Shown here piece after piece: positions 3,495-49,240 of a stretch of DNA of 64,000 bases. A program made the translations under genes and the position numbers. Source of the DNA: Lineus longissimus. Taxonomy: Eukaryota; Nemertea; Pilidiophora; Heteronemertea; Lineidae. Location: NCBI RefSeq assembly GCF_910592395.1, contig NC_088325.1, positions 11,288,109-11,352,108 of the forward strand, read 5' to 3'. Every line of letters starts with the position of its first letter. The first letter of the stretch is position 1. Under the pieces are notes generated by a model, which was not told where the DNA came from, searched no databases, and saw only the letters and a program-made list of their open reading frames with translations.

Positions 3495-3625
3495 TAACAG
3501 TGCCATTCATCAACTGGAGCTTGCAGCCCATCAGCTGATCGTGTGTATTTCCTAAACTTGATGACAGGTGTCTCTTGCCTTTCAAATGAGGCATCAGTGA
3601 TATTGCTCCATCACTACGAGGATTA
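3495..3625 (+). repeat. Duplication block 3, copy A
   Basis: Direct match to about 45510-45645. The shared core is TTGATGACAGGTGTCTCTT, followed by CTTTCA and a conserved ACGAGGAT. TTGCAGCCCATCAGCTGAT aligns with TTGCTGCCTATCAGCTTAT. The offset to copy B is about 42.0 kb. Confidence 0.75.
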
Positions 3626-4234
3626 TAAAGTTTTACAAGACGGCAGTAGTTGTTGACAATACAATGTACTCTGTTTTGGATGTCATTTCACCTGGTTTGG
3701 TATCAGAAGTGGGCTACCCGCCAGCAACTGATGCCTAGATCTTCAGTGCTAGAAGTACCAAAGGCATCGAAGTACTGTACCAGGGGATATACAATGACGA
3801 TAGTTGTGAACTCGTTGGGTCACGTGGATTCATTGATGGATACATCGTAATGACTAAATCGATAGAATAGTGAGAATGTGGAATTTGTTTTGTCTCCAAA
3901 GCTAAATTTTATGGGAGGGCATATTTTGTCACTTTGGTATCGGACCTCATTCTTGCAAAGCCAACAAGGACTTGCTATCATATACATCTTAGATCTTGGA
4001 GCGAGTCGTTGTTTGTCAACATTCATAGCTCGGTATTTTAGACTATTGCGACACTTCGACTTGCTGCAGTCATGCATCATTGATCCTGCTAATTTCAAAA
4101 CAGGTCAGTTTGTTACAGACTTGATACTGACTAGGCTCTGTGAATTGACATTTTACATTTGCCATTGCACAGTCTGCAAGTTTCGTCACGTTATGGCCAG
4201 CCGTGTGTGGCAATAACTGTGCCACTTTTGCTGA
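3626..4234. other. No feature recognised
   Basis: Contains a plus-strand frame of 112 codons (3878-4216) and an antisense frame of 92 codons over the same bases. Neither has a recognisable motif or a visible copy B counterpart, so I do not call either a gene. Confidence 0.45.
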
Positions 4235-4490
4235 TACGTTCACAATTTACTTTGCTGCAGATCAATACGCGAGACTTTCCAGCATTTTCAGCTGAAGCCA
4301 CAACTCGCTCCAAGAGCAGCTCTCTCATTTGAAATCAGTGGCCGGGTGTTCTTGGTCATAAGAATGGTTGCTTTGAATGGTCATTTGCCTGTGCACTGAT
4401 TTACCTTCCGGGAGAAGTTTCATACGGGACAGTATATATATCAAAATGTGCCATTGATGGATATGTTCTTCACTGATGTACGGCAGGTGA
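4235..4490 (+). repeat. Duplication block 4, copy A, ending at a splice-donor-like site
   Basis: Direct match to about 46170-46439. Shared runs include TTTACTT.GCTGC.GATCAATACG, TCTCTCATTTGAA, GTGCACTG and GGGACAGTATAT. The block ends at CAG followed by GTGAGT (donor at 4487), and the copy B equivalent ends at AAG followed by GTAAGA (46434). A possible acceptor ends at 4260 (TTTGCTGCAG), but its AG is changed to GCGG in copy B. No shared reading frame is open. Confidence 0.6.
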
Positions 4491-6312
4491 GTTTTATCTT
4501 GAATGAGTTTTTATTTCTTATACAGATCATCATCAGATCATAAAAAGATATTAGAAGTTGTCGTAATCATAGGTTCCTATACAATTTGCAAGGCATGCGT
4601 TATTTAGAAAAATACATGTATGGCCCAAGTCAATCTATTTGTCATTTTCGTGTGGGTGGGGGGGGGGGCTGTTAGATTTCTGATAAGTTAATCGAAAATA
4701 TGACCTTGGGATACATATTATCATAGACTAAGTTGTTTGGACTTTGAGAAAACACGACCATACTGTACTCATGCGCTATCATTTGTTGCCTTTAACAAAA
4801 AAAAACAGTACCTGTCTTTCCTTTCTTTTATCAATTGCACAATATCACGAGGAGATAGTTATTGGTCACAGAATGGGAATGCCTTTTCTGAACTGTCAGT
4901 CTGTGGCACTTGTTCAGTCGTTGACTTCCCAGCAGAACACGGCCTATATACCAAGTATTTGAATCCAAACACTCAACTGCACTACTTCAATGCTCATTCA
5001 CCAGCAATTTTGGGGAAATATCACAAATCTACGTTAGGAAAAGAAGTGTTTGATCATGCTTATTCAGTAATGACTATGTCTATGTCTATGACTATGTCTG
5101 TCTACTCAAGATAGATAAAACTGTCCTACTAGTATATATTGGCTGGTAGAATGAACTAATTCATATACATGAAACTTTAAAACACAAATGCCTGAAATTA
5201 TTATTAGAAATAAATATGGTTGCCGCAGCATAAGGGTTAACATGTGTATATATTGAAAAGTCAAGATATCCCTCTCTTAGGAAATCATAGTATACTTTCA
5301 TGACTTGTCACATATGGAAGGATAATGACACATAATCATATTCATAATCTGGCTTAAAATGAGAGTTTCATTGAGGCGGTTGTAAAATTGTCATACGAGT
5401 CATACAGTAGCAGGTTTTCTCGGAAATTTTAATCCGGTTATGTTATTTTTTGTACATGATGAAAAGATTAGCTGTCAACCCTTTGAGGGTTTTAATACTT
5501 TCATCATGCTTTTTCGGGAAAAAAGCTTTAAGAACATAAAATCTTATGAGAGAAGTTCACAAAGCCATGAAGATGCAATAATGAGATCTTCAAGGTAGAT
5601 TTAATCATTTTATCTTTGGCTGGTGATGCTACGTTGGCATTCCGTGCCATGGCTTTTTGCACTTGATTGTCATAGACTTGTTGAGGCGGGCAGTACATCT
5701 TGACTCCTTTGATCTGAGTCCTTTTCTATGAGATGAAATATTTAGTGTGTCGTAATAGGAGAAGTAAAAAGTTGGGTGAAAGGAATTCAATGCATGATAT
5801 CAAACTGATTTAGGCCTATATCAGTAAAAATACTAATTACACCAGCTATACACATCTTTGTTTATTCTATCTTTCTGGTCAGCAGCCTGCGTTGAATTTG
5901 GTGTCATTGCGTTATATCTTGATGATACTTGGTGATACTCAGTGTGTTAACAATTTTTGACACCAAACCAATCTTTGAATTCGAAATAAGGCATCTGAAC
6001 AAGATGAAAATTATTAATTCGTCGCCATCCGAGTTGTAGGCCATAACCACAATTTGGAATATGACTTCAACAATTAGGCTAACACCACCTTCCCATTAAA
6101 ATTTTCAAATATAGACGCGAAAGTATTTTAATCGATTTGAAAGCGGTTAAGTCAAAGACGACACTAGGCGACTATAATTCCGTTTCAAAGCGGACGTCAA
6201 CAGTCTTAGATATGCGTGCTGACATAGTTAGTTTAAGCAGGAGTAAATACTAAGCTTTCAAGTTTTACCTCTACGAATATATGCTGATAATATTCTGCCC
6301 TTGTTATTTTAG
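4491..6312. other. No gene recognised; putative intron of copy A
   Basis: Lies between a conserved donor-like site and a conserved acceptor-like site. Its length (about 1.83 kb) is close to the copy B equivalent (about 1.86 kb), though little sequence similarity remains. It includes a G-run near 4658-4668 and a short TCTATG-type repeat near 5076-5100. The 125-codon plus frame at 4737-5114 ends in that repeat and shows no known domain. Confidence 0.4.
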
Positions 6313-6361
6313 ATATTAGATCGAATGGATTACTTCTGAACTAACTAGGACAACGTTTAAG
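6313..6361 (+). ncRNA. Candidate non-coding exon, copy A
   Basis: A 49-nt stretch is preceded by a pyrimidine-rich acceptor (GCCCTTGTTATTTTAG) and followed by GTAGGT. The paralogous stretch at 48297-48346 is 50 nt, preceded by CTTTATCCTTTCAG and followed by GTAAGT. Both share ATGGATTA and ACTAACT in the middle and TTTGCA after the donor. Stop codons and a 1-nt length difference argue against a shared protein. This is either an exon of a duplicated non-coding or UTR-bearing transcript, or chance splice-like sequence inside a conserved element. Confidence 0.35.
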
Positions 6362-6584
6362 GTAGGTTTGCACCAAACAATAAAATCATGTATTTTCATC
6401 ACCCATTTGATACATTTTTTTGTAACCTTGGAGTACAATCTTTGAGATTCATATAGAGCTACTATAGTTGCATGAGAAATGGACATATAGCTAGGTATTG
6501 AAAACGGGACCTCCGAGATGAAAACCGAAGTAGTTCATTCCAGGCCTGGTCAAATAGTACTTACAAGTAGACACTGGGGTACAT
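6362..6584. other. No feature recognised
   Basis: Anonymous sequence between conserved blocks, following the candidate splice donor. Confidence 0.35.
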
Positions 6585-7210
6585 GAATGATCTTTTGGGT
6601 CATTTCCTTCTTGTAGTTGCCCAATAAGCAATGAGTGGTCAATTTACAGAAAAACACATCTTAATAAGATTGCTGCTATTCGAGATAGGTAACATTGGTA
6701 ACATGAGCCAAAAGGGCCATTCCATACGCGTCTTATTGTTTCTTACTTTATATTCCCTTTCCTATGATGAGATGCAATTCACCAATCGCCTTGTGGAGCA
6801 ATGAGCCGGTAGGCCATTCCAACCAACAAATGCGTCTTTCGGCAGCCATTAGTTACGGCTGACCAACATCATTTTCGAAAAGGTTACGATTGCTTGGCAG
6901 TTTTTCACCAGACACTGACGCCACTACCCACCATGCCCCCATCACTGTTCAGAATGGATACTGCCTCATCAAATTGTCATTCGATTCAAGTGTGCGTGTT
7001 TCAGATATTTTTATCAGTTACGAGCAAATGTGGCGGAGAGCATCGTGGGCATGGCAATGTTACATGCTCCATATCTAGGAGCTGCAGGCTCCGTGAAGGG
7101 CAACATGAGCAGCCAAGCCATCTTGATTACCTGAATGGGTAATGTTGCTGAAAGAAGATTTTCCATCATCCCGGGGCAGCTGCAAAAATTTTTCTTTGCC
7201 AGATTATAAT
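6585..7210 (+). repeat. Duplication block 6, copy A (long island)
   Basis: Direct match to about 48595-49240, the longest continuous homologous block. Shared runs include CTTTTGGGTCATTTCC, GAGTGGTCAATT, GAAAAGGTT/GAGAAGGTT, CGTTCAGAATGG, TCATTCGATTCAAGTG, ATATTTTTATCAGT, ACGAGCAAATGTGGCGGAGAG and TTCCATCATCCCGGGG. Short frames of 62 and 82 codons here are broken by indels in copy B, so conservation is at nucleotide level. Confidence 0.8.
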
Positions 7211-7554
7211 TTTTTTTAGGTTTACATCTATGATAGATGATTTAGATTCAGCTGCCTGGTATTCATTCGGAAAACATCAGGTCTATTTCTAAAGGGCTAA
7301 GTAAGGACCCTTTCATGGTTTGAACATCCCAAGTTAAAAATCCAATTTCGATTTCTAGCAATATTTTTAGTAAAGTTTTTTCTTGTTTTGTACATGTATC
7401 AGTCATCGGTAGTGGAATACTAAACTTCATGGGAATAGCATTTGATAGTTTGAGTTAATTGCTTGCGTTATCTGATGACCAATTACATGTAGTGCGTTAC
7501 ACCATGCCGTCAAATTATTGAAAATCAGTCAGAAACTTGAACAATGGCCTGTAA
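7211..7554. other. No feature recognised
   Basis: AT-rich anonymous spacer; nothing recognised on either strand. Confidence 0.45.
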
Positions 7555-7850
7555 ACTGCACCAAAGACACTGTGCTGCCACGTGACCAAGTATAAAGCTT
7601 CAAAAAATCTCAAGCCAATAAATTCATGAAGAACTAGCCCGCAAAAATAACCTGGAATGTGCTGTTAACTGGTTTTATAAACTTTTCATCTCACCGTTAT
7701 CCACACTATGGAGGCAAGTCATTACCTTAAATGTGTTCTTCACCACCACTGATATCGCTCATTTAGTATGATAACACGATATAAGACGCTATTGCGAGAT
7801 TTCCTAAATTACTTTCCAGTGGATCAGTGCTGAAATGGAACTTTGATATG
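7555..7850 (+). repeat. Duplication block 7, copy A
   Basis: Direct match to about 50205-50520. Shared runs include GCCAC.TG.CCAA.TA, AAAAAATCT.AAGCCAATA, TGCTGTTAA, GGCAAGTCATTAC, AAATGTGTTCTTCA and GACGCTATTG, ending at ATTACTTTCCAG.GG. Confidence 0.75.
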
Positions 7851-8174
7851 AGAAGTATGTTATTGCAAACGGTGAGATTTTGAGTGAAAAGGTTGAATTA
7901 ATAAGGACACTGCAGGTTGAGCTTCTATTGCAGAGGTGAGCTGGACATTTATGCAGAGACTGAGAATCGCAAACGAACAAAAGCCAATTGGGTTTCAACC
8001 AATGTTGGTAGTTATGTCTGCAAGTATTGCTATTTTAATGGCTACTTTCAGCCAGAGAAAACATTTGCTGTTAGAAACCACATCAATACGTTATCTCAAC
8101 TAAAACAGTTGCAGAAACGGTTAACTGAGTTAACGTGTAACAATGGTCATGCCTAATCAGAATTCCCGTCCAGA
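7851..8174. other. No gene recognised
   Basis: A plus-strand frame of 79 codons (7917-8156) contains two CxxC-like pairs of cysteines. It matches no family I know and has no visible copy B counterpart. I treat it as chance. Confidence 0.35.
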
Positions 8175-8920
8175 CAGAAAAAATATATTCATTAGTTTGA
8201 ACATGTAACGAATTCATCAGCCACATTAGTCGCGCCCAGAGGTGACGCCGGCCAAGAAGAACATTGGCCAATTAGGGTGTTGAAATGGGCTTTCTTATCA
8301 TACACACGCGATGATGGAGCAGTAGACACAAACTAATGTGATGTCATTCTTGGGCAGAAAGCACAATTTTCATTCCAAGTTAAGCTAACAATGAAAAACT
8401 CATCACTATATCTCACCCTTTTATGAAATCACTGCAAGAAAATTTGTAATTCAAAAGAACTTTCATTATGAGATTTCAATAAAAAGGTAATAATAACATT
8501 GTGGGGGCTTTCACGTGAAATCTTATGTTTTATTTGATTTCAACAATTGTGTAGTCAGTAATATAGAACTGTGGTGCTTTTTCCCAAGGACAATAACTTG
8601 AATTTAATCACGGAGATGTCACATTTATAATGAAACGGTCTCGAAAGTGACGAGTGGTATCTAAAATCGATTAGACTTGGCCGTGCCTGGGAGAGGAGTT
8701 TCATGTCGTTAGTTAGTAAGACATATTTCTTAATCAATTTTATTCAATTAAAATGTAGCCCATGATTTCGCTAGAATACTTACTTAATTATTTATGGGGT
8801 CGTTTCCTTGATCACCCTGAGTATACTTGGGAGCCGTGGTGAGAAAGTTAAAAGAGGTGGGGAACATCCGTTTGCTGATATTGACAGTTACTGTTGGATG
8901 GAGTTACTATGCCACCAAAT
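8175..8920 (+). repeat. Duplication blocks 8-10, copy A
   Basis: Three islands match copy B in order. 8175-8300 matches 51255-51410 (ATTCATTAGT.TGAACATGTAA, ATCAGCCACATTA, GGTGAC, GAAGAACAT.GGCCAATT). 8615-8760 matches 52145-52300 (TATAATGAAAC, GGTATCTAAAAT, GTTTCATG.C.TTAGTTAG). 8780-8920 matches 52810-52930 (CTTAC.T.AATTATTTAT, GGGAGCCGTG.TGAGAAAGTT). The DNA between islands is not alignable by eye. Confidence 0.75.
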
Positions 8921-9119
8921 GTACATTTAGATGTCAAGGAAATATTTAAACATGTTAAATGAAGTACTACCTGCATGTAGTACTCTGCTGCCAGAACAAA
9001 GACAAAATAATACTGATGAGAAGGAACAGCAACAGAAAAGATATGACACGTATGACAAATAATATACCCAAAGTTTCATCACCGATAAGGTATTCCATCT
9101 TTCAGACACATGGGCTGAA
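8921..9119. other. No feature recognised
   Basis: Opposing short frames of 61 and 71 codons overlap here; neither is supported. Confidence 0.35.
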
Positions 9120-9665
9120 GACATTCCCTGGACACCTTTCATAACTCCTAAGTGACAGAAACAATATCAATAATAGCGGGCATTGCTAAGCGCCCGACGT
9201 GAGAAGTTTATCCATTTATCAGAATGACCACAAATTGATATTATGTGATAAATATCCATCACTTTAGGAGATAGTGCCTTGTTCTCCAAAATTATTGGTT
9301 CTGTGTCACTTCACTTGATCGGACAGACATGATTGGTTAGTTAGTTAGGTGCCCACACCACAATCTCTCTTGATTCCATTGTTGTCTTAACTCTTGAGCC
9401 TAATGTCGCTGATAACCTCGTCCCTGATTATTTTAATATAAATGATACGTCACAAAAGTGTCACTCAACGCTGCAGTTTGTAGTCAGGGCTGCATTCGAT
9501 TTGCCTTCCTACCAGTTCTTGCTATCTTTTCTCAAGTTAACGATGTTTAGGCTTCTCGAGATTTCTAATGATTCGGGTGTATTTCTATTGGTTAACGTGT
9601 TCAATTGTCAGCTTAGCCCTGAACTGGAGCCAGGGGATGGCAATCATCTTGATTTGAGGCAGAAT
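9120..9665 (+). repeat. Duplication blocks 11-12, copy A
   Basis: Matches about 53690-54255. Shared runs include GATACCTTTCATAA / GACACCTTTCATAA, GACAGAAACAATATC, CGACGTGAG, GCTGATAACCTCGTCCC, CATCACAAAAGTGTCAC / CGTCACAAAAGTGTCAC, GATTTGCCT and GAGATTTCTAATGAT. The right edge still aligns at AACTGGAGCCAGGGGATGG against AACCTAGGTCATGGGATTG. Confidence 0.8.
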
Positions 9666-9869
9666 GATCAATGTCAATTTGCAATAGTACAAAATGCAGC
9701 AAAGTTCGCATAGCTGGAGTCCTCTCAGGAAATTCCTCTGAAGAGCTGTTATACCTCTGTAGAAAAGAAATCTGAAAACATACATTTATCAGACACAAGT
9801 GCATTTACCATTTCGCCTGAACCGTATTTCAAAGTCAATATGCCAGTATAAACTGCGGCCAAAAGATAA
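9666..9869. other. Rearrangement junction region, copy A
   Basis: Lies between the last direct block and the inverted block. Only weak words match copy B in either orientation, so the inversion breakpoint should be here. Confidence 0.4.
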
Positions 9870-10155
9870 ATACTCCTGCCACCATATTGATATTCACTGC
9901 AGCGATGCTTCCATATTAATACCAAAAGTCGCAGAGTATTAAATGAACTGTGGTGTGTGGGTGATTTATGATGCTTTTGTCTGATAATGCACTCAGGGTG
10001 AGACAGTGTAAATGGGATTGCTGATTTCGAACGGAAGTTATGATTTCTCTCTTGATTTGTCATTATTATATGACAGACTGGATGAAATATTTCTCTGATA
10101 CACAAAGTCGTAATCGAGAGAAGAGAAGGCTAGAATTTTCAATTGCATACTCATG
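9870..10155 (+). repeat. Duplication block 13, inverted between copies
   Basis: Matches the reverse complement of 56530-56825. Shared runs (one orientation) are GAAATATTTCATCCAG, CTGTCATATAATAATGA, ATGCATTATC/GTGCATTATC and GTGAATATCAATATGG, with AAATTCTAGCC at the far end. Identity is about 75-80%. A minus frame of 118 codons crosses it. A short peptide (WKH.C.EYQYG) is seen in both copies, but substitutions fall mainly on first codon positions and the copy B frame has an upstream stop, so coding is not supported. Confidence 0.8.
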
Positions 10156-10979
10156 CAACTAACCTGAGATTTAAAGTGTTGTTTATTCATTAAGTCATTT
10201 AACAAGTACAGTGCACATTTATGGTCGGCTCGACATTATAAAAGTCATCGAAATAACCTCTTTATATCATCTTATTCAGCATTCCCTCAGCACTTGGAAA
10301 TGAACGTTATCCTCCAGGGGGTATTCCTCCTCCAATGCTGGATGAGTGTTTTTTATGTGCCACTTTGGTTCAGGAGCAATCCGGTTTATTGGCCTGGTGA
10401 CCCTGTCTTCAGCCAGAGGCAGAGTCCATGCCATAGTTTTCACGTTTCTTACCTGGTGGTTTCTTTTTTTTCATGCCCTAGGAAAGACCTAAGATTCAAG
10501 GAGCCTTGCATACTCGTGCAAACAGGGCCTACAACATGACTCCAGAGGGAGTATAGTATCTAGTGTATCGAGTGAAATGACCTGATATTGTTAGAATGGG
10601 AACTCATTCGGAGGGCTTTGAGGGGCCAAGAATTCTACCTCCTTGAAAGCCATGCTCTAGAAATACAATCATGGGTTCTCTCTGGGATCTCACGCTCTAC
10701 GCTGTGTGTCGAAGTTCCTCCTGTGTAACCCACCTTGACCCTCAATGTATTGACATTTCTAAGCTTTACAGACAGCGCACGTCTAATGGGCGGAAGTAAC
10801 GGAGGCAATACTGCAGGAACTTCAGTATGGTATAATTTTGGATAGTTGCCTTGTTGTTGAATATTCTTGCCATTTTGTGTTTTGTCAATGAGGGATGTTG
10901 TGTTAATTCATTAGAAGCATTTTATATTCAATCCAATTGCTATGTTCCAAAGTTGCTATCGTTTTTATTACACCCACCA
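10156..10979. other. No feature recognised
   Basis: Anonymous sequence with one 81-codon plus frame (10294-10539) that has no recognisable motif. No copy B match was seen. Confidence 0.45.
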
Positions 10980-11200
10980 TCTTGACTCTCACCTGTCCCC
11001 GGCAGCAAATGAAATAGCGCAGGTATAATCCACTGAAATTGGATGTTTTTTTCTATGTCCCCAGGCCAGCTCTACAGACAGCATATGGGCCCTGATCAGC
11101 CACACCATCTCCGAGGGACGATAGAATCATATCTATTCATGAGAATTGAAAAATATGCTTGTATATGTTGCCTAAGGGTTGGAAAAGACGACCTCAAGTT
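10980..11200 (+). repeat. Duplication block 14, copy A
   Basis: Direct match to about 57710-57910. Shared runs include TGAAATA.CGCA.GTATAATC, AAATTGGATG, GCCCTGATCAGCCA / GTCCTAATCAGCCA and the near-invariant ATCATATCTATTCATGAGAA followed by TTGAAAA. The last 30 bases are much better kept than the rest, like a small conserved non-coding element. Confidence 0.8.
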
Positions 11201-11509
11201 GGTGCGGTGATGGATATTAAAGATGGAGAACTTGATAATGGGCTTGTATAAGAGTATTTTTTGCCACCTCAAGAGGCGTACACTAAGTTATTTTGGAGTT
11301 GTTGATATAGACCTAATGAGCCGCAAGCTCATCTGCTTTACTCCAATCAGTGAATTTGGTTTATTCCAATGTCCACGTAGATGTTTTTTTTATTAGCAAT
11401 CCAATGGATGGAACTTGCTCTATTCGTCAATATCTCATTATAATTTCTTGAAAAGTTAAATTAGTGTATATCTACCAATCACATGGACTGAAAGAGTGAA
11501 AAGCACAAA
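11201..11509. other. No feature recognised
   Basis: AT-rich anonymous spacer. Confidence 0.4.
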
Positions 11510-11850
11510 AGATTTTTGCCACTTGAAATAATTTTGTCCTATTGAAGTTGATTGCAAAAAAAATTGTTACAACTCTATTTCTTATTAAAGTGTGAACTTC
11601 ATTATGCCGAATAGATCTGAGCAACAGACTCAATTTCAAATTTACAACGCTGGGAATTTTGCCTCGCAGGAAAAGTAATGAATTTTGGGTCGATTGCGGA
11701 GGCATGTTAAGTAATTGTTCTACAATTGATAGTTGTTCAGTTCATTCCTAACAAATCACGAAAACATTCGAAGCTGATGAATGATGTAAAATTGCCCGAG
11801 GAATTTTCATGCGTTTTGTCGTAAAACTGAAGTAAACTTGAAATTGGATG
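11510..11850 (+). repeat. Duplication block 15, copy A
   Basis: Direct match to about 58940-59235. Shared runs include TGAAGTTGATTGCA, GTGTGAACTTCA, TCAATTTCAAATT, GGGTCGATTGCGG, TCTACAATTGA, AGTTGT, TTGATGAATGATG and GAACTGAAGT/AAACTGAAGT. Confidence 0.75.
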
Positions 11851-12084
11851 AAATTAAGGGATAATTTTGTTTTTGGTAATATCGTTTTGTGTTTGTGTTC
11901 CTTCTACTCTCATTGACTGTTTTATAGCATTTTCAAACCACGCCTTGTGTATATTATCCTTTTCAATTAACCGCACACATTTTTACACTTTAACCACAAT
12001 CCTTAAACCAGTCAGTAGACATCATGAGCTGCACAATCGGCTCTTCAATCTGAGCTTTTTTGACCGGTACCAATTTATACACCT
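11851..12084. other. No gene recognised
   Basis: Left part of a 113-codon plus frame (11867-12208) that runs antisense through the SINE-like piece downstream. It is therefore not a credible gene. Confidence 0.4.
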
Positions 12085-12212
12085 ATGTCACCTGAGTTTA
12101 TTAGACAAAGAGACTTACCTAAAGTCTCACATTGACTTTGGGGATGGAACCAAGGACCTCTTGACCACTAGTCGAATTTCCGACCCACTGGAGCACACCA
12201 GCTCCTAAGAAT
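12085..12212 (-). repeat. tRNA-derived SINE-like element
   Basis: On the minus strand a pol III A-box-like TGTGCTCCAGTGG (about 12187-12199) lies about 40 nt upstream of a B-box-like GGTTCCATCCC (about 12142-12152). The order and spacing resemble a tRNA gene. Between them is a diverged anticodon-arm-like stretch, and the tail runs on toward lower coordinates. The T-arm and A/B boxes are degenerate, so this is a SINE fragment or tRNA pseudogene rather than a working tRNA. Confidence 0.55.
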
Positions 12213-13039
12213 AGCACATTGGACAGTGATAATATATTTCAGATCTGTTGAAATGGCATTTCTGGCTCTCAAGCCAGATATTCCAGAGACTAAAATGCAT
12301 CCAGGATGCAATTCATTGCTCCCTTGACTTTGAAGCGAAATCAGTGACAAGGTGAATATTCAATGTGTCAGCCTCTCAACTTGGCAAATTAAAATTTTCT
12401 TGTAAATCGGATATCTATCGATGATCCTTCTGATCTAAAAATGGAGATGAACGAGGATGCAAAGTTGTGTCACTAAACTAGCATATAGATCCATTTTAAT
12501 GATATGGATGACTGACAGATGAAGGGGCAATAGTGAGAGGAGTGTGGTTAGCTAATTTACTGCTGTCAGTTTGTGATTGAAAAGAATGCAGGTCTTTGAT
12601 AGGCTGAGTTGAGAATTCTAAAACATCTGGGTTTAGAATAAACTGCACATTGCAGTGTAAATGCACAATGCGCCAATGAAGCTTCGTTTTGAATTCAGCA
12701 GTTTGGGCTAGGCAACCATAACCACTCGGTTTGGTGCAAAATATGGATGCATTTCAAAATCAGTTAGAAATGTGTTCATCCAATTCGTAGCTTTCGTACT
12801 GCCAATATCAGTGCATCTGCATGACACCTCAAACAGGGGTAGTAAGAGATATATGTTGGAGTTCTCCAATTGATGAGAACTCAGGATACGACCGACGTGT
12901 ATGGCACTAAGACACCATTAGTACGTTTCCTGACATTTTAGGGAGAGTACGTGTCACATTTAGATATGATTTTGTGTAAGACAGGGCAACTGGTTAATGT
13001 AGAAGGTAACTGCAGTCGGAATTCAGTCTTTAAATCGGA
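12213..13039. other. No feature recognised
   Basis: Anonymous non-coding sequence; no convincing frame, repeat or copy B match. Confidence 0.45.
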
Positions 13040-13330
13040 TTGGTGAAAAAGGAAAAATTACACTCGCAGTCTACAGCCATTAGCTGCAAAGACATCTCTC
13101 CGTGGCCAGATCAATATAGCGTCCAGCAAAAGTGTTGCTATAACTTCGCTTCATTAGTGCAGAGAACTCGATAAACCCGGTCATGTCAGAGAATGCCGCT
13201 TCACTGACTTAGGTTGGTAACGTGGAAAAAATCTGGTCATTTGGTTCCAAGTCCTGATATGAAGTCGATACTCCCATCTTGGAAATGCAAATATTCAATT
13301 GCTCTGGTTTAGGCAAAACAAATAGGGGTT
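13040..13330 (+). repeat. Duplication block 16, copy A
   Basis: Direct match to about 60520-60810 at an offset of 47488-47491. Shared runs include ATAACTTCGCTTCATTAG, GCAG..AACTCGATAAACC, CATGTC.GA, CGCTTCAC and AAAATCTGGTCATTTGGTTC. It contains a TCATTAG homeodomain-type word kept in both copies. Confidence 0.8.
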
Positions 13331-13599
13331 AGGTTCTGTCTCCAAGTGTAGACCTCTCGCCTGAAACAGGACACTTTGCAGATACCGGTATTGGAGAGAA
13401 ACGAGTTTGAAATGTAGCGTTCTATATCGCTAAATGAGCTATAACGTTGGTGAAAATTTTAGCTGACAAAATAGTACCAAGCCATTCAGATCATTCTGAA
13501 GTGGAGAGGCCATTTCAAAAAAGTTTTACCACTGTTTATAAATAATATCATTCCATATTACCCCGAGTCGTAAAAAGCAAGTTGATTGATGTATATGCT
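13331..13599. other. No feature recognised
   Basis: Spacer just left of the FB1 insertion. Sequence has drifted relative to copy B, but the distance between flanking blocks is preserved once FB1 is subtracted. Confidence 0.45.
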
Positions 13600-13608
13600 A
13601 CACTAAAC
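13600..13608 (+). repeat. FB1 left target-site duplication
   Basis: ACACTAAAC, identical to 14746-14754 immediately after the element. Confidence 0.9.
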
Positions 13609-13670
13609 GGGTGTCTATAAACCGAAGACCAAAGACCGAAGACCGAAGATCGAAGATGGAAGACCCCCCC

Positions 13671-14287
13671 CAAAACTATAAAACGAAGATCCCCCCAACT
13701 ATAAAAGGAAGACCCTAATGTCAACTATAAAACGAAGATCCCCCAACTATAAAAGGAAGACCCTGATGTCAACTATAAAACGAAGATCCCCCCAACTATA
13801 AAAGGAAGACCCTAATGTCAACTATAAAACGAAGATCCCCCCAACTATAAAAGGAAGACCCTGATGTCAACTATAAAACGAAGATCCCCCCCAACTATAA
13901 AAGGAAGACCCTAATGTCAACTATAAAACGAAGATCCCCCAATCTATAAAAGGAAGACCCTAATGCAAAAATAAAACGAAGATCCCCCCAACTATAAAAG
14001 GAAGACCCTGATGTCAACTATAAAACGAAGATCCCCCCATCTATAAAAGGAAGACCCTAATGTCAACTATAAAACGAAGATCCCCCCAACTATAAAAGGA
14101 AGACCCTGATGTCAACTATAAAACGAAGATCCCCCCAACTATAAAAGGAAGACCCTAATGTCAACTATAAAACGAAGATCCCCCAATCTATAAAAGGAAG
14201 ACCCTAATGTCAACTATAAAACGAAGATCCCCCCAACTAGAAAAGGAAGACCCTAATGTCAACTATAAAACGAAGATCCCCCCATCT
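13671..14287 (+). repeat. FB1 left-arm 49-bp tandem array
   Basis: About 13 occurrences of the AAAACGAAGATCC half-unit at roughly 48-50 bp spacing. Variants alternate CCCTAATGTC with CCCTGATGTC in a partly regular order, suggesting higher-order (about 98-bp) duplication. The C-run length varies from 5 to 7 between units. Confidence 0.9.
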
Positions 14288-14313
14288 AGTTGACATTAGG
14301 GTCTTCCTTTTAT

Positions 14314-14690
14314 AGATGGGGGGATCTTCGTTTTATAGTTGACATTAGGGTCTTCCTTTTATAGTTGGGGGGATCTTCGTTTTATAGTTGACATTAGGGT
14401 CTTCCTTTTATAGTTGGGGGATCTTCGTTTTATAGTTGACATTAGGGTCTTCCTTTTATAGATGGGGGGATCTTCGTTTTATAGTTGACATCAGGGTCTT
14501 CCTTTTATAGTTGGGGGGATCTTCGTTTTATAGTTGACATTAGGGTCTTCCTTTTCTAGTTGGGGGGATCTTCGTTTTATAGTTGACATCAGGGTCTTCC
14601 TTTTATAGTTGGGGGATCTTCCTTTTATAGTTGACATCAGGGTCTTCCTTTTATAGTTGGGGGGATCTTCGTTTTATAGTTTTGGGGGGG
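14314..14690 (-). repeat. FB1 right-arm 49-bp tandem array
   Basis: Inverted version of the left array, with about 8 units. One unit near 14615 reads GATCTTCCTTTTATAG instead of GATCTTCGTTTTATAG. The arms differ in unit number, so the array has expanded or contracted after inversion. Confidence 0.9.
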
Positions 14691-14745
14691 TCTTCCATCT
14701 TCGATCTTCGGTCTTCGGTCTTTGGTCTTCGGTTTATAGACACCC

Positions 14746-14754
14746 ACACTAAAC
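14746..14754 (+). repeat. FB1 right target-site duplication
   Basis: ACACTAAAC, the second copy of the 9-bp duplication. Confidence 0.9.
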
Positions 14755-15034
14755 GCGTTCGTCGTTGATTAGCGCTGTTGGTTTGCTAAGTGTGACATTA
14801 TTAGCTTGAGATCTGTTGGATTCCTTCTTCCTGGCTGAGAATATGGATAAACTTGGCCACTAACTCCTGGCGCCAAACTTAATGGGACACTTGTGCAAGA
14901 ATTGCTCACAAGACTAAGCATAGACGTATCTACAGTTAGTGGAAGTCATGTGGTTTATTGACATATGGGTGAGAAGATCAAATCTCCCAATAATTTCCTG
15001 GTTCTCTGCAACCAACTTGTCAATTTAGAGTGGC
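14755..15034. other. No feature recognised
   Basis: Spacer between FB1 and the next conserved island. It holds the start of an 80-codon plus frame (14965-15207) that continues through the island. Confidence 0.4.
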
Positions 15035-15160
15035 TGGTGAGATGCTTTATTGAATGGGCAAATCGAAAGTCATCTTATTTATTGCTTTCGGATGAACACA
15101 CGGCTGACTATTCATGGACGTTTTATATAACCAGGTATTGTACAGAATGCTCTGTAATAC
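15035..15160 (+). repeat. Duplication block 17, copy A (highly conserved island)
   Basis: 15041-15111 aligns without gaps to 61382-61452 with 5 mismatches in 71 columns counted by eye, far above most other blocks. Invariant runs include TTTATTGAATGGGCAAATCG and TTATTGCTTTCGGATGAACA. An open frame spans it in both copies (80 codons in A, about 53 in B), sharing RCFIEWANRKSS and LLLSDEHT. Over about 42 aligned codons the changes fall about 10:6:8 on positions 1:2:3, which gives no coding signature. A conserved non-coding element is more likely than an exon. Confidence 0.7.
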
Positions 15161-15464
15161 GTAGGAAGATGAGAAAGAACGTTGATACCTATTTAAAGAT
15201 GAGATAGAGGGGTACGTAACGGGCGCTGTGTGATGGTTATGTAAGCAGGCTCATAAACCAAACTAGGTGGGTTTAATCACACATCTCTTGTGACATTGGC
15301 CAGGTCGTTTTATTGTTTGTGATTCATTTATGTGATAACATTACGAGGGCAAGCAAAAAGAGCCAAACAAAGTTTGAAACATAACCCATTATTGAAAACG
15401 AACTTGTTTATTAGCTATTGCTAACAGTGTAGCATTCAGGACAAATCCTTGGCATTGTGAGCTC
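15161..15464. other. No feature recognised
   Basis: Anonymous spacer between two conserved islands. Confidence 0.4.
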
Positions 15465-15890
15465 ACGGGAATGGAGCATTTCATCCAATTTACAATTCAA
15501 TTCTACACACAAAATATTGTGGCTCAGTATCAAAATCTGGCAGCATGGCATTTCATGGGCCCATGACAATAACTTGCGCCAAATTCCCTGATAAAAAAAC
15601 TTACAAAGTTTGATTACAGTCTATCATGAGCTAATACCTCATGTCAGACAGGGTGTGCCTAGATTCACCAAGTTCTTGCGTGCGTCGCTATTTTCTATCC
15701 TCAATGACAAGAAGCTGTGACCTGATAATCGCTAGATCGGCGACTAGTATTAAAAGCTTGACAGATTCATTATGTTAGAATGTGATCAAAGTCTCGTGTC
15801 GCCAGGCTGATTAAGCTTTTGTTCTTGCTGTTGTTTTATTGTATGGAATACAAAGTAAGAATGTGGCTTTATTTATGTATGTAAGTTATT
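15465..15890 (+). promoter_or_regulatory. Duplication block 18, copy A: candidate conserved regulatory element
   Basis: Matches 62765-63215. The core 15717-15820 aligns gap-free to 63029-63130 with about 11 mismatches in some 104 columns. Invariant runs are AAAAGCTTGACAGATTCATT, GTGATCAAAGTCTC and TGTCGCCAG. GATCAAAG at 15784-15791 is the reverse complement of the TCF/LEF consensus CTTTGATC and is kept in copy B (63095-63102). A TTCATTATG homeodomain-type word is also kept. Enhancer activity is inferred, not shown. Confidence 0.6.
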
Positions 15891-25196: not shown

Positions 25197-26746
25197 GCTC
25201 ACCGTATAGATATTTGGTGCTTTGTAATTCATCCAGATTAAGAAACATTGTACATGTATAGTATATAGGTCAAACCAAAGTCGGTATGACATGTGATGTA
25301 TCGTTGCTTGGAGTAAGTACCCTAAGAATATCATCAAAAACAAGTCAATAATAAACGAGATATTGCACTTTTTACCTATTTTAGTTTTGGCCTCCTGGTG
25401 GCCGAGTTGAGTACCAGATCAGATCGAAATTCGGTGTCCGAGGTTACATGACGTAGGGAGTCATGTGTATCAAATTTCAAGTTCAAAGCTTTAGTGGTTA
25501 AGAAACGTGCCATAGTTACAATCAAACGACAAATTTACGCCATTTGACCTCTGTGACCTTGAAAAGCAGGTCAGATCAAAAACTCATATGATATGTGATG
25601 TATCCTTGCTAGGAGAGCCTACCATAAAAATGTTATTGAAAACGAATCACTAAAAATAAGCAAGATATTGCACTTCTTACTTTTTCCATTATGGCCCCCT
25701 GGTGGCCGAATAAAGAATCAGATCGAGCCAAAATTTGGCATCAGAGGTTATCTGATGTAGGGGGTTATATGCACCAAGTTTCAAGTTCATAGCTTTACTG
25801 GTTAAGAAACGTGCCATAGTTTACACTCTAACGGCCAATTTACGCCATATGACCTCTGTGACCTTGAAAAGTAGGTCAAATTGAAAACCCGTAAGATATG
25901 TGATGTATTCTTCCTAAGGGTACCTACCATAAAAATTTTATCGAAAACAAGTCACTTATAAGCGAGATATCACACTTTTTAGATTTCCACTTTTGGCCCC
26001 CTGGTGGCAAAGTTGAGAATCAGATCAAACTGAAATTCAGCACCAGAGGCTATGTGATATAGGGGGTTATATGTACCAAGTTTCAAGTTCATAGCTTTAG
26101 TGGTTAAGAAACGTGCCATAGTTTACACTCTAACGGCCAATTTACGCCATATGACCTCTGTGACCTTGAAAAGTAGGTCAAATTGAAAACCCGTAAGATA
26201 TGTGATGTATTCTTCCTAAGGGTACCTACCATAAAAATTTTATCGAAAACAAGTCACTTATAAGCGAGATATCACACTTTTTAGATTTCCACTTTTGGCC
26301 CCCTGGTGGCAAAGTTGAGAATCAGATCAAACTGAAATTCAGCACCAGAGGCTATGTGATATAGGGGGTTATATGTACCAAGTTTCAAGTTCATAGCTTT
26401 AGTGGTTAAGAAACGTGCCATAGTTTACACTCTAACGGCCAATTTACGCCATATGACCTCTGTGACCTTGAAAAGTAGGTCAAATTAAAAACCCGTATGA
26501 TATAAGATGTATATTTACTATGAGTACCTACAACAAAAGTTTCATCGAAAACAAGTCACTAATAAGCGAGATATCACAGTTTTTAGATATCCACATTTGG
26601 CCCCCTGGTGGCCAAGTAGAGAATCAGATCAGACAGAAATTTAGTGTCACGGGTCATCTGACCTAGGGGGTCATGTGTACAAAGTTTTAAGTTCATAGGC
26701 CTAGCGGTTAGGAAACGTGCCACTGTTTTTGAACTAGGATACGACG

Positions 26747-26805
<59 letters not shown>

Positions 26806-26858
26806 ACGACGACGGACGACGGACACTGCGGTATTGTATAGACTCCCCTACGGTGAGC
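25197..26858. mobile_element. 302-bp tandem array bracketed by a 10-bp inverted repeat
   Basis: The phrase GGCCCCCTGGTGGC recurs (first copy GGCCTCCTGGTGGC) with starts near 25389, 25693, 25995, 26297 and 26599, a period of 302-304 bp. Each unit also holds GTTAAGAAACGTGCC, TGACCTCTGTGACCTTGAAA and AAGCGAGATAT-type words. The two middle units are virtually identical; outer ones are diverged. The array ends in an ACG microsatellite. GCTCACCGTA at 25197-25206 is exactly inverted as TACGGTGAGC at 26849-26858. No target duplication is evident, so calling the whole a transposon is tentative; the array itself is certain. I do not recognise the family. Confidence 0.7.
26741..26824 (+). repeat. ACG trinucleotide microsatellite
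   Basis: About 26 ACG/GAC units, interrupted three times by GGACG. It terminates the 302-bp array. Poly-arginine and poly-valine frames on the minus strand here (26583-26902) are products of this repeat. Confidence 0.95.
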
Positions 26859-36243: not shown

Positions 36244-36251
36244 CTTGAACT
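36244..36251 (+). repeat. FB2 left target-site duplication
   Basis: CTTGAACT, repeated at 37810-37817. Confidence 0.75.
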
Positions 36252-36600
36252 GGTATCTGCCCATTTCGCCTTAACCTTATTCGCCTTATCCAATTTTGCC
36301 TTCTCCCATTTAGCCTTCTCCTAACTTGCCTTTTCTCAATTCGCCTTCTACGATTTCGCCATCGTCTTATCTCGCCTTTGTTCCAATTGGCCTTCTTCCT
36401 AACTCGCCTTCCTCTCATCTTGCCTCATCCTTGTTTGCCTTTTCTTATTTCGCCTTTGTCCTATTCTGCCTTGGTTCCATCCTGCCTTATCTCATCTTGC
36501 CTTTTCCTGATTGACCTTTGTGTCAATTCGCCTTCTTCCCATTTTGCCTTCTCCCGTTTCGCCATATCTCACCTCGCCTTTTATCAATCCCCCTTCGTTA
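36252..36600 (+). repeat. FB2 left-arm minisatellite
   Basis: Pyrimidine-rich units of 17-20 bp containing TTCGCCTT or TTTGCCTT, strongly degenerate between units. Open frames on both strands (96, 62 and 88 codons) are by-products of a period near a multiple of three. Confidence 0.9.
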
Positions 36601-37438
36601 AGCAAGGGGTCTATTATTTGCAGGGGGGGGGGGCAGTGTTTTGAGTAGTTTAATGATTCTGTTCAAAAAAACTTTGGTACTTATATTATCTCATGCTTAG
36701 TTATAGCATTGCTGTGAATGAAGAACATCAAACATACCAAAACCATCTAAAGGGAACACTGCGTGTGACGTTCTTGAGAGCTAACTCGTTCTGTGAGAAG
36801 GCCTCATAATTCCCCAATGATCAAAGGAATACATCTTCCAGATTGCTGGATTTGAATAGGCCTATTGACCATAGTCCATAATAAAGAACTTCAGAAGCAC
36901 TCACACTTTGAATGATCAATAAAATACTTAGCACCCCCATCCCTCCTATATAGTACCAGGTCACAAGTCTTACTCATCAAAGAATGCCAAAACACTATGC
37001 CAAAATATTTCCATGAAAGACTTGGAAAACTCTAAGATTTGACAAACATGGGTAAAGATACTAAGTTGGTTTTGGAGATACATGTAAGCTTACATGTAGA
37101 TGGTTCAGAAGTTATGAAGATTTGAAAATATTGGTAATTAAGCAACAGCCTTGGGTAGGGTACCAAAACATAATTCGTGGAAACACTCTTATATGAAAGA
37201 CTGGCCCCACAAACATGGGTAAAAGAGACAAAAGTCTTTTGTAATATGGTATGTAATGTAATATGACTATAATGGCTGAGAAGTTATCTACACTTGTAAT
37301 TTTGGCAATGTCCACCGGGTTTTGGTTGGGGGTACCCCCGAATGGACCCTAGAAGCCCTTCAACACTGTTGAAGACATTTTCATATGAAAGATTGACTCA
37401 ACAAACATGGGTAAAGACACCAAGTTTGTTGCAAAGTA
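36601..37438. repeat. FB2 spacer with a diverged internal repeat
   Basis: ACAAACATGGGTAAA recurs near 37043, 37208 and 37402. Around it lie a TATGAAAGA(C/T)TG word and an ACTAAGTT / CCAAGTTTG-type sequence, giving three diverged copies of a 160-195 bp unit. A run of about 10 G lies near 36625. Confidence 0.65.
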
Positions 37439-37809
37439 GGAAGAAGGCGAAATGGGAAGAAGGCGAAATAATACAAAGGCGGGGCGGGTAAAGGCGAGAT
37501 AGGATGAAGGCGAATTAGGACAAAGGTAAATTAGGACAAGGTGAAATAGGAGAAGGCAGATTAAGACAATGGCAAACTGAGACGAAGGCAAGAATGGATA
37601 AGGCAACTTGTGATAAGGCAAGATAAAACAGAGGCAAAATAGCATGAGGCGAAAAATGAAAAGGCGAAAAAAGACAAAGGCGAGATAGAATAAGGCGGAT
37701 TGGGAAGAGGCAAAATTGGAAAAGGCGAAATAGGAGAAGGCGAAATGTATATTTTTTAAAGGCAAAATGGGAAAAGGCGAAAAAAGACAAGGCGAAATGG
37801 GCATGAACC
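37439..37809 (-). repeat. FB2 right-arm minisatellite
   Basis: Purine-rich AAGGCGAAAT(G/A)GGA-type units of 16-20 bp, complementary in sense to the left arm. The longest open frame in the window (151 codons, minus, 37349-37804) is this repeat and is not a gene. Confidence 0.9.
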
Positions 37810-37817
37810 CTTGAACT
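37810..37817 (+). repeat. FB2 right target-site duplication
   Basis: CTTGAACT, the partner of 36244-36251. Confidence 0.75.
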
Positions 37818-45509: not shown

Positions 45510-45645
45510 GAGGCTGGCTGTGACATAAAGCAGCTTGAGGGTTGCTGCCTATCAGCTTATGGTGTATAGTTCCAGTACTTGATGACAGGTGTCTCTTTTC
45601 TTTCACGTGGCGTCGGTTAACACAACGAGGATATGAAGGTTGTTC
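45510..45645 (+). repeat. Duplication block 3, copy B
   Basis: Counterpart of 3495-3625, sharing TTGATGACAGGTGTCTCTT. An overlapping 91-codon minus frame is not kept in copy A. Confidence 0.75.
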
Positions 45646-46169
45646 ACCTTGTGTTTGATGTTCGAACTCCGTTGTTTTTGTAAAACTTTTCAAATAGTTC
45701 GCTGTTAAAATTACTTTCTGGTAAGGAAGAGCTGAACCGAGTGGGAGACACGAGGAACTATCAATGACTCAGAGGAGGTCTAAAGGTCTTTCAAAGCTGG
45801 GTGTGTCGTATTAAAATGGATGTGTCCTAATAAATAGATGAGTGACTTCATCAACAAGTAAATTGGATTATGTCTTTCAAGTGAACAACTGATAATCTTT
45901 TACTTCGGTAACTCTTCAGAAGGTGACTTCGACTTGCTATACTTCTATGTGTAACTTGAAAATCTTGGATTTTTCTGCACCTACAGGCAACTATCCTATG
46001 GGATATGCTCCATTCACACATCACGGATCTTGTTGATTTCTAAACCTTCATGAGACAAATAGTTACTGAGAGCGTGACTAACTTGATACATGTATGATAT
46101 AGAACTTTGTGTACCAAAATCCGACATCTGCTTATTTAGTAAGAGTGAAGCAATTATTGTCCATCACTT
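45646..46169. other. No feature recognised
   Basis: Anonymous spacer whose length is close to the copy A equivalent (3626-4234). Confidence 0.4.
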
Positions 46170-46439
46170 GTGTTGATGCATTCACATTTTACTTCGCTGC
46201 GGATCAATACGAGACACTATCTCATCGTTTGGATCATCGAGTGTGGACTAAAACCCGCACGTTCTCGCTATTAGAGAAAATCTCTCATTTGAATTAAGTT
46301 GCGCTCTTATTCAAAAGGAGGGATGAGATAAATGGACATTTAGCTGTGCACTGTTTTAGCTGCTCGGTGATTTTCATATGGGGACAGTATATCAAACAGT
46401 GACAGTGATGGATAAGTTTTTCGTTGATTTAAGGTAAGA
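46170..46439 (+). repeat. Duplication block 4, copy B, ending at a splice-donor-like site
   Basis: Counterpart of 4235-4490. It ends at AAG followed by GTAAGA (donor at 46434). A 62-codon frame at 46109-46297 is closed by early stops in copy A. Confidence 0.6.
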
Positions 46440-48296
46440 AGGTTTTGATTTCATGAGATATGTTAATCTAGTCTCAAAGCTGTTATTCATTGAAGTGTTT
46501 AGAAAGAAATCATGTCATGTTTGTACTACAGCCCTGCACAAATGTGTGATTTAAATCGCTGCGATATGCAATCATGGTCACATGCAACAAAAGTATTGTG
46601 TGTGGTAGTCATCACAGGTATCTGCAACAAAAATCGGTGATCGCAGCAACCTGACATCAATATCAAACCCAGCTATTACCAGTTCGACCAGGAGACGAGA
46701 GAGTGTCCAACATTGCAGCAATTTCAATTGCAGGTTACTGTGACGAAAATTGTTTGTTTGCTGGGGGCTTAAACCACTGCCTTGAACTGACACTAATGCA
46801 GCAACACAACATGCAAACAGTATTGGAATAATTAACCTGGAGAAGTAATCACATGCTCGTCAGTTAATTAAAAGCGTGTGAAGACGAACTAATTTATAAT
46901 TTAGAGGACGTGTTATATCTTCTATCAGTTTGTAAGCGAATTTCATCAATTTGTGGCAGGGGTTGATTAGGTTTATGCTGTTTGATAAACCCAATGCTCC
47001 GCATGAGGCCAGTCATGGTATTCTTCTAGTTTAACTATTTCTCTGCATGGTCGGTCATTCTTGAATATCAGAGTCGAATAATCTGGTTTTGCAATTGCAT
47101 AAAAGGAGGAGAGTCACAGAGTTAAAATGACCTTGTGCTCCATTGGTCGTCTCCTGAAGCTGGAAATCATGATAAGTGTTCAAAAAATCTGGTAGTGAAT
47201 ACTATAACTTTAAATTTGCTGAAAAGCCAATATTAGTGTTACTCTTTGCACACTTGCCATACTCTCAACACGATAGAGAAAAAATATCTGAACTCTGCGT
47301 TCTAAAATTTTCAGTTGCTTTCACAAATTTGGTATGCGCCGGTATGGAAAAAAAGAGCTGAAGATATTGCATACAGCTTGTAGGACTGCAGACATTAGTA
47401 TTGCCATTAGAAAGAAGAAACCTAACAAACAAACTAAATGTGCTACTATCGGTACGATGGTTCTCTTTCTTAACTTCTGTGGCTTCAGGAATTGCAAGGT
47501 TTTTTTACTCGAAATGACATCCAGTGAGCATCAACACCATCATCGAATGATTGCGGGCAAATGACGGGAAAAGGCTGATATTTGCAGATAAGAAATTCAA
47601 ATGGCATCACATGTGACCAACTGGTGATCATGAGTGAACCACATCTGAAACTACCCTATCATTTCCTTAAAAACTGCAGAATGTCTTCAAAACTGCTTGC
47701 AGCTAATTGGTCTTTAAATTCTATTCTTGTCTGAATCATTAGACTTATTACCTTAATTTGCTTAAAGGAAGACTAATGTTAAAAATGACATCAATTATTC
47801 AGTATTCTTCTGTTCTATTACTTATGACATTTAAACGATGATGTAAGGACCGATGGATTCTTTGGCATATCATTGGATTGGATTGGTTGTCCACTTATCT
47901 TTATATTGTCAACGTCCCTCCTCGGCACAAGGTTGATGCTGTTGATCCTTTTTATTTTGCATTGCAGCGTATACTGTATTTGCCTCCCAAGAGATTGCAA
48001 CGTAGTGCACTGTGTAATGATCGTGCTCATAGTTTGAGCCTGGTGAAATTCAGTTTACCAGCGTTTTTGAATGCATGGTATCAAACTAAAGGCATTTTCT
48101 CATAGCAGTTTAAATTTTTGAACTTTGGCAAGATATGAGGGAATAAATGATGGTTTGGCTTTGCAACCTTGAGCAAAAGTTAGTAACTATATACTGCTTT
48201 CTTCTTAAGACGATAATTCCTTAATAGGCCTTACAGTTGAGACTAGAAAACTGAGTGACTATGACATAACAAAATGCCCTGTCTTTATCCTTTCAG
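46440..48296. other. No gene recognised; putative intron of copy B
   Basis: About 1.86 kb between the conserved donor-like and acceptor-like sites, nearly the copy A length. Frames of 60-76 codons have no domain. Confidence 0.4.
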
Positions 48297-48346
48297 ATGC
48301 TAAAACCTGATGGATTATCCGTGGACTAACTCGGTCGAGTGACAAG
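48297..48346 (+). ncRNA. Candidate non-coding exon, copy B
   Basis: 50 nt between a strong acceptor (CTTTATCCTTTCAG, ending at 48296) and GTAAGT. It is paralogous to 6313-6361 and shares ATGGATTA and ACTAACT. All three frames contain stops or differ from copy A. Confidence 0.4.
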
Positions 48347-48594
48347 GTAAGTTTGCAACCGTCGTACTTCTCTGTGCCTTGTTTCGTCCATTTAAATCTT
48401 ACTTGAAGCTGGGACATGCTAAGAGTATCATGCTCTGCATGGAATCAGGTAGTCACATCACCAGGTTATTATTCTAAGGGTCACATTAGAAACGGGCCAA
48501 TATTGGTATAGGGCCCAAGACCTTAGAGGTGATACAATGTACATGTATGTTCCAACTTTGCTGAGCTCGATCTTCAAATCAAACAATGAATATT
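48347..48594. other. No feature recognised
   Basis: Anonymous spacer, equivalent to 6362-6584. Confidence 0.35.
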
Positions 48595-49240
48595 TGGGGT
48601 TTCTGAATGGCCTTTTGGGTCATTTCCCTCCTGCGCTGGCTGACCGAACATGGAGTGGTCAATTCTGGGAAGGACGCCTCTCCATCACCTAGCTGCAATT
48701 CTGCCCAGGCAACATTTGTGAAATGAGCCAGAAGGGCCAATCCTGTAGCCTAATGTCATTTCTTACTCTATGTTCCCGTTCTTATTATGGAAAGATAGCC
48801 CTGCACTGGCTAATATGTTGTGAAATGATCCACGAGGCCGTTCCCGCAAACAAAATGAGTAGTTCACTGACCACTGGTAACAGCCGACAACGTTCATTCT
48901 CGAGAAGGTTCAAATGGTTGTTTCTTGGTAGCCTAGTTTTTGCCAAACATCTACGCAATGACCCGCATCCCCGTTCAGAATGGTTAATGCCTCATTGACT
49001 GGTCATTCGATTCAAGTGGCCATGTTTTAGATATTTTTATCAGTCACGAGCAAATGTGGCGGAGAGAATTGAGCGCATGGCAATATAACTTTCTCAGTAT
49101 CTTCCTGCTGCAGGGTCCGGCAATGGTAAAATGCGACCGTAATCCATCTTGATTATCTAAATGCGTAATTTGGCCGAGAAAAGGTGTTCCATCATCCCGG
49201 GGGCTGATGCAGGAAATGCCGTGTTTTTGGCAAGATTATC
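48595..49240 (+). repeat. Duplication block 6, copy B
   Basis: Counterpart of 6585-7210. The 91-codon frame here (48723-48998) is not the frame open in copy A. Confidence 0.8.

Follow-up and report, generated by a model that had tools for sequence, protein, structure and literature searches.

FB1, a 1,137-bp inverted-repeat element of the nemertean Lineus longissimus, is very probably a non-autonomous member, reduced by an internal deletion, of a high-copy foldback family of the MULE type. It lies on contig C19 (G000:C19:11301717-11302853) of the 391-Mb assembly (30 contigs) that was searched as the genome, in a stretch of 64,000 nucleotides that was analysed as a whole and is here called the window. 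FB1 itself is ordinary, and the finding is the kinase-transposase lineage behind it: a protein kinase and a deubiquitinase-like domain beside a transposase are an unexpected combination for a transposon. With moderate confidence, we place the FB1 family in an ancient animal lineage of MULEs in which transposase, kinase and a viral-tegument-like deubiquitinase domain form one protein, which could phosphorylate or deubiquitinate itself or host factors.

Structure of FB1

FB1, a foldback-type element at positions 13609-14745 of the window, is flanked by a perfect 9-bp target-site duplication, ACACTAAAC, at 13600-13608 and 14746-14754, and in both length and duplication it is as a preliminary description had stated. 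Its ends are perfect terminal inverted repeats at 13609-13670 (forward strand) and 14684-14745 (reverse strand), which are 62 nt long rather than the 16 bp first given, with 7-bp ACCGAAG-like sub-repeats inside the left one. Between them are two opposed arrays of a 49-bp unit, 12.6 units on the forward strand at 13674-14288 and 8.1 inverted units on the reverse strand at 14287-14681, in agreement with the earlier estimate of about 13 and 8. Because the arrays share 2 nt where they meet, at 14287-14288, the unique spacer is zero; the 26 nt formerly placed between the arrays fit the loop of one folding register and are themselves array sequence. The outer parts of the arms, 461 bp and 459 bp, align at 97.6%. 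Their six-unit order is collinear, which only 28 of the 720 permutations equal, and a register shifted by five units gives an equally good fit per unit.

The 49-bp unit is a dimer of two related half-units, for which the real score was reached in none of 20,000 shuffles. It also resembles the FB1 terminus, with a score of 23; when the doubled unit was mononucleotide-shuffled 20,000 times, 13 of the shuffles reached it. This likeness is modest, and the highest score elsewhere in the window is 21. Folded as a single strand, FB1 is predicted to form 453 arm-to-arm pairs with RNA and DNA parameters alike, a count that refers to the minimum-energy fold of the unshuffled sequence only. A transcript might form a long double-stranded RNA hairpin and the DNA might extrude a cruciform, as the preliminary description suggested. 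The arrays hold 19 TATAAAAG and 19 TATAAAAC boxes, all facing inward. The TATAAAAG boxes at 13674-14681 number 11 on the forward and 8 on the reverse strand, out of 13 and 9 window-wide. As far as sequence can tell, the unequal arms, the flush duplication and the recurrence of the FB1 ends in 44 further parsed copies argue against an assembly artefact.

The FB1 family in the genome

The FB1 family is large and present in high copy number. Used as a query, FB1 gave at least 196 matches in the genome (132 candidates, 40 scored), and its 22-nt end, at up to three mismatches, was found 205 times in forward and 198 times in reverse orientation, 403 in all, against 1 and 1 for the reversed-pattern control. 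The preliminary description had proposed a search for other copies with these ends, whose absence would have spoken against a transposon, and the termini found dispose of that objection. Fifty-two loci were fetched. Six of these (L016, L026, L029, L031, L040 and L041) were dropped because the fetched stretch did not include a second end, and L049 and L050, which together are the 14.9-kb copy described below, were handled apart, so that the parsed set (n=45) comprised 44 copies with both ends and FB1. Target duplications in the parsed set were exact and 9 bp long in 30 of 45 copies, exact and 10 bp long in 10 and imperfect in 5.

Most of the 44 other parsed copies carry 49-bp arrays, with the number of units varying between arms. 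Among the armed copies (n=43 including FB1; of the 45, L059 and L060 were set aside as short or degenerate), 42 have spacers of about 313 to 3,130 bp by a half-unit matching rule, and FB1 alone has none. The absence of spacer cargo, which the preliminary description called extreme among foldback elements, is no trait of the family. Within a copy, the two arms resemble each other no more than they resemble arms of other copies: the own partner was nearest in only 3 of 43 copies, and divergence from the own partner compared with other copies had means of 2.1% and 3.8% and medians of 2.1% and 2.0%, respectively. In FB1, the right arms of 21 of the 42 other copies are closer than its own right arm. 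In 28 of the 45 parsed copies, none of them FB1, the interior is 98.4-100% identical to part of the 14.9-kb copy, in most cases to the stretch that leads up to and enters its kinase ORF.

Pattern scans of viral contigs for the FB1 terminus and for the 49-bp unit gave 0 matches each, and no match was found in the phages and plasmids searched. Scanning genome contigs for 18 terminus bases gave 2 matches with only those 18 bases in common with FB1, where by our own estimate about 7 are expected by chance. The terminus sequence was not found in the open-access literature.

Origin of FB1

The closest copy compared, L012 (G000:C9:14835052-14836962, 1,911 bp), contains the whole of FB1 plus one contiguous piece of 776 bp, which consists of the L012 spacer and the inner right array. 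Outside this gap, FB1 and L012 match at 1,128 positions and differ by 4 mismatches and by 8 single-base gaps, of which 7 fall in C or G runs. The break, at 14287-14288, has the dinucleotide TA common to both sides. In a parent test of 42 copies in both orientations, in which the outer 760 and 540 bases were compared, L012 in the same orientation required 12 edits and one deletion, L012 reversed required 28, and the other copies among the best 12 rows required at least 32. L013, a near-duplicate of L012, required 44 edits, owing to its repeated terminus. L013 (G000:C9:14842214-14844155) is a near-identical neighbour of L012 with a repeated 32-bp terminus at its right end and flanks unlike each other. 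The FB1 junction has 1 match in the 391 Mb at up to three mismatches. Since the junction is found once and L012 minus 776 bp fits FB1, we conclude that FB1 is a singleton deletion product and not a class. The description "almost pure minisatellite foldback transposon" is right in that FB1 is a foldback-type DNA transposon with minisatellite arms, and wrong if taken to denote a pure-minisatellite class. A five-unit duplication in the left arm was also considered as the cause of the unequal arms and was rejected, as the L012 alignment shows that inner units were lost from the right arm.

We propose that a transposase from full-length copies would bind the ends, and perhaps also the terminus-like half-units, and would move copies of the FB1 type in trans by cut-and-paste. 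The middle of FB1 may have been lost through microhomology-mediated or abortive gap repair, either at its present site or during the event that brought it there. As the interiors of short copies match the 14.9-kb copy, the full-length element, the short copies and FB1 would form a series arising through successive internal losses, with the order inferred. FB1 is a clean example of how a spacer-less foldback can originate, by one microhomology deletion in a normal copy.

Three other readings of FB1 were weighed against this origin. FB1 could be the founder or a member of a separate class of minisatellite-only foldbacks that is mobile as such, and its perfect ends and target duplication would leave it structurally complete for movement in trans; the single occurrence of its junction and the spacer in the closest copy compared make such a class very improbable. 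Still harder to credit is that FB1 has been kept as a source of hairpin RNA or as a tandem TATA promoter array, which the inward boxes (19 of each kind) and the predicted arm-to-arm pairs might suggest, but the boxes belong to the repeated terminus-like motif. Fold-back synthesis, in which one arm is copied off the other to give a spacer-less palindrome, would agree with the identity of the outer arms over about 460 bp and with their collinear unit order, the five-unit-shifted register being equal per unit. We regard it as scarcely credible, given that the arms of FB1 are just as close to those of other copies as to one another and that one deletion of L012 accounts for FB1 with 12 edits.

The full-length copy and its transposase

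A transposase-bearing partner, for which the preliminary description had suggested a search, was found as a copy of 14,858 bp with ends at C3:10315112 and C3:10329969, flanked on both sides by GTTTCAACA as a 9-bp duplication and possessing the family ends and 49-bp arrays as in FB1. Its 738-aa ORF matches PF10551 (MULE) with E=8.9e-5 and 23.3 bits, compared with a Pfam curated cut-off of 27.6. In an alignment of this ORF with 13 chosen of its 30 relatives, PF10551 matched 12 of the 14 proteins at E up to 0.1, and the predicted DDE/C2H residues D139, D209, C230, H233 and E350 are kept in all 14. The residues of a SWIM-like CxCx8CxH motif are kept in 12 to 13 of the 14, and only one of the 14 matched the Pfam SWIM model with E up to 0.1. 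The best solved fold found by Foldseek with the predicted transposase model (mean pLDDT 74) was the ISCth4 transposase, which we take to be of the IS256 family, with E=2e-5, low TM-scores of 0.23 and 0.39 and 13 A rmsd. A C/DxxH motif is given for MuDR in PMC9587614.

An ORF of 188 aa with the transposase N-terminus overlaps the 738-aa ORF in another frame. Since the transposase is split over two frames, this copy may be broken and no longer functional, as judged from its reading frames. A scan confined to these two ORFs, of 738 and 188 aa, gave no PHD family with E up to 1.

The genome-wide search with PF10551, in which 150 of 235 candidates were scored, gave at least 127 matches, many of them in long open reading frames, and the 14.9-kb copy was absent among the 127 listed. 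The Lineus longissimus genome probably contains several other MULE families. In viral contigs, 29 pattern matches to transposase relatives were obtained, none of which was confirmed.

The kinase and the probable joined gene

On the transposase strand, the 14.9-kb copy also possesses an ORF of 625 aa that contains a protein kinase domain (PF00069, E=2.2e-30); the putative kinase exon lies at 11648-13384 of this copy. Two Lineus longissimus proteins in the databases are 99-100% identical to a family ORF over the matched part. The NCBI protein P0032 starts inside the kinase domain, at ORF residue 281, and runs to the end of the ORF and through small exons, two pairs of which are mutually similar, into the transposase N-terminus. 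By our own reading of its first seven exons, GT or AG lies within 2 bases of the BLAST edges at donors and inner acceptors; no acceptor was located for the last exon. P0031 has the start of the kinase and a different end. Neither protein extends over the whole of both kinase and transposase, so that the joined Lineus gene is inferred; in the 14.9-kb copy the kinase with its deubiquitinase-like domain and the transposase are probably encoded by one spliced gene.

Among relatives of the kinase, P0033-P0036 are 36-38% identical to the 625-aa ORF over 90-92% of its length. In an alignment of the Lineus ORF with 35 relatives (P0029 and 34 of 120 listed), the relatives are 29-40% identical to the ORF and mostly keep the catalytic residues and the extra domain, with five kinase residues complete in 34 of the 36 rows and gaps accounting for the misses. 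In viral contigs, candidate kinase relatives were found at 71 loci, with 20-45% identity over parts of the query. A search with P0029 returned 24 proteins: P0029, P0151-P0155 (99-100% coverage), P0156 (77%) and 17 proteins at 19-44%. Of the first seven, which were scanned with Pfam, P0029 and P0151-P0155 have kinase and MULE domains in one chain and P0156 has MULE only, with all MULE scores below the cut-off. P0155, a protein of the sea cucumber Holothuria leucospilota, also has a SWIM finger above the Pfam cut-off. P0151-P0153 are 84-87% alike, and the six fused proteins are otherwise far apart (44-53% to P0029), from which we recognize four divergent groups. Several of these apparent transposon kinase genes are annotated as host genes, namely P0031 and P0032 in Lineus (a ULK1-like and an uncharacterised protein) and P0155 in Holothuria (TAO1).

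Alternatively, some copies might have captured the kinase from the host, and it would then be a host gene without a role in the transposon. Uptake of host sequence by MULEs is documented (PMC6446971), and the short copies retain only pieces of the kinase. Precomputed domains place a kinase in only P0029 among 30 transposase relatives, in a search from which proteins above about 1,290 aa were excluded, and PF10551 is present in 0 of the 120 listed kinase relatives, in a search that excluded proteins much longer than the query. Many of the kinase-less transposase entries may be single exons. Against capture stand the kinase and transposase in one chain in P0029 and P0151-P0155, in four divergent groups, the 35 relatives that at 29-40% identity mostly keep the catalytic residues and the extra domain, and the distance to solved kinase structures, the closest having only E=6.6e-10. 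We therefore consider capture unlikely. A dN/dS comparison of kinase copies was uninformative: 6 loci matched, and only L023 was usable, with 1 change in 1,500 bases.

The putative deubiquitinase domain

In the predicted model of the kinase ORF (mean pLDDT 84.7 overall), residues 400-625 stand apart as a confidently modelled portion of their own. In this third domain, Cys445 and Asp572 are each present in 36 of 36 aligned rows and His574 in 33 of 36. PMC9741609 gives Cys and Asp-x-His as the residues of viral-tegument-like deubiquitinases (VTDs), which have spread through transposons. C445 and D572/H574 correspond to this pattern, and the domain is a putative tegument-like deubiquitinase. Profile matches are weak. 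The best PDB match of the domain profile is the deubiquitinating enzyme 8adb with E=0.031, an entry that appears in the VTD paper (PMC9741609). Herpes_teg_N was matched in 1 of 36 aligned rows with E=0.0012 and, in a second scan, in 1 of 6 (the Lineus piece) with E=0.19. A single-sequence PDB search with the domain gave no match, and the best 50 rows of two Foldseek searches were all kinases in one and mostly kinases in the other.

The full-length gene would encode in one protein the kinase, the putative tegument-like deubiquitinase, a linker and the transposase, and the extra domains may regulate the transposase or shield it from ubiquitin-dependent removal. If true, the three in one chain in several animals would amount to a regulated transposase of a new kind, and would account for some animal genes annotated as ordinary kinases, such as the ULK1-like gene of Lineus and TAO1 of Holothuria. 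No account of a kinase joined to a transposase was found in the open-access literature searched.

Host region and other features of the window

FB1 lies in an old collinear duplication, in which 3521-15878 and 45542-63207 are about 67-85% identical in blocks and show no clear coding exons. The diverged duplicate of the host region has an interval without FB1 at 60788-61326 (forward strand), where 538 bp separate the flanking matches, compared with 1,691 bp on the FB1 side. An exact empty site in this duplicate was considered and rejected, since the flanks near the insertion point align unconvincingly.

A second long-inverted-repeat element, at 36244-37817, measures 1,558 bp between two copies of CTTGAACT. 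Its ends are GGTATCTGCCCATTTCGCC and, as reverse complement, GGTTCATGCCCATTTCGCC, and its arms consist of degenerate 15-bp repeats flanking a unique spacer; presumably it is similar to a sea urchin TU-type element. Its 19-base end is present in one viral contig (L003). A 302-bp tandem array of 4.8 copies at 25284-26722 adjoins an ACG microsatellite at 26741-26821. None of 20 window ORFs scanned with Pfam scored above the cut-off, and an Rfam search gave 0 matches.

Comparison with known systems

The FB1 family has the structure of foldback elements, with long inverted arms composed largely of tandem repeats. Sea urchin TU elements have 15-bp repeats and an 8-bp duplication, so that FB1, with 49-bp units and a 9-bp duplication, is not one of them. 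Mutator/MULE elements produce target duplications of mostly 9 bp (8-11), with which the exact 9 or 10 bp in 40 of the 45 parsed copies agree.

The VTDs, as treated in the main text of PMC9741609, resemble the third domain in Cys and Asp-x-His, weak profile matches and spread through transposons, and differ in that their non-viral members are mostly in Helitrons. That main text describes cnidarian VTD domains fused to transposon-associated domains and mentions neither kinase nor Mutator, MULE or MuDR. Galileo and Foldback (PMC3573991, PMC3688188) are like FB1 in their long inverted repeats with internal repeats and in the occurrence of copies made of terminal inverted repeats (TIRs) only, which are described for Galileo (PMC3573991); the THAP domain of their transposase binds several sites in the long repeats. 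Galileo differs in belonging to the P superfamily and in its 7-bp duplications, compared with 9 bp in FB1. Galileo provides precedents both for copies reduced to their TIRs and for multiple binding sites within long arms.

The comparison with Rehavkus suggested in the preliminary description is fair structurally. PMC6446971 and PMC10218199 give Rehavkus for arthropods and annelids, and the FB1 family shares with it a 9-bp duplication, tandem repeats in inverted termini and, probably, a relationship to MULEs. By description, Rehavkus differs from the FB1 family, whose scanned ORFs have no PHD finger and whose zinc motif is SWIM-like (CxC x8 CxH). As no PHD finger was found in the two transposase ORFs scanned, FB1 was not filed under Rehavkus.

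Tm1 of root-knot nematodes is presented in PMC3169594 as a foldback member of the Mutator/MULE superfamily. Tm1 and the FB1 family are alike in their mostly 9-bp duplications, variable-number tandem repeats in inverted repeats and, for the FB1 family putatively, MULE-type transposase, and each has a transposase-bearing copy and many non-autonomous ones. The FB1 family differs in its 49-bp dimeric unit, compared with about 14 bp in Tm1, in the 62-nt perfect ends of FB1 and in its full-length copy with kinase and deubiquitinase-like domains (PMC3169594 for Tm1). By analogy, FB1 would work structurally like Mutator-superfamily foldback members such as Tm1.
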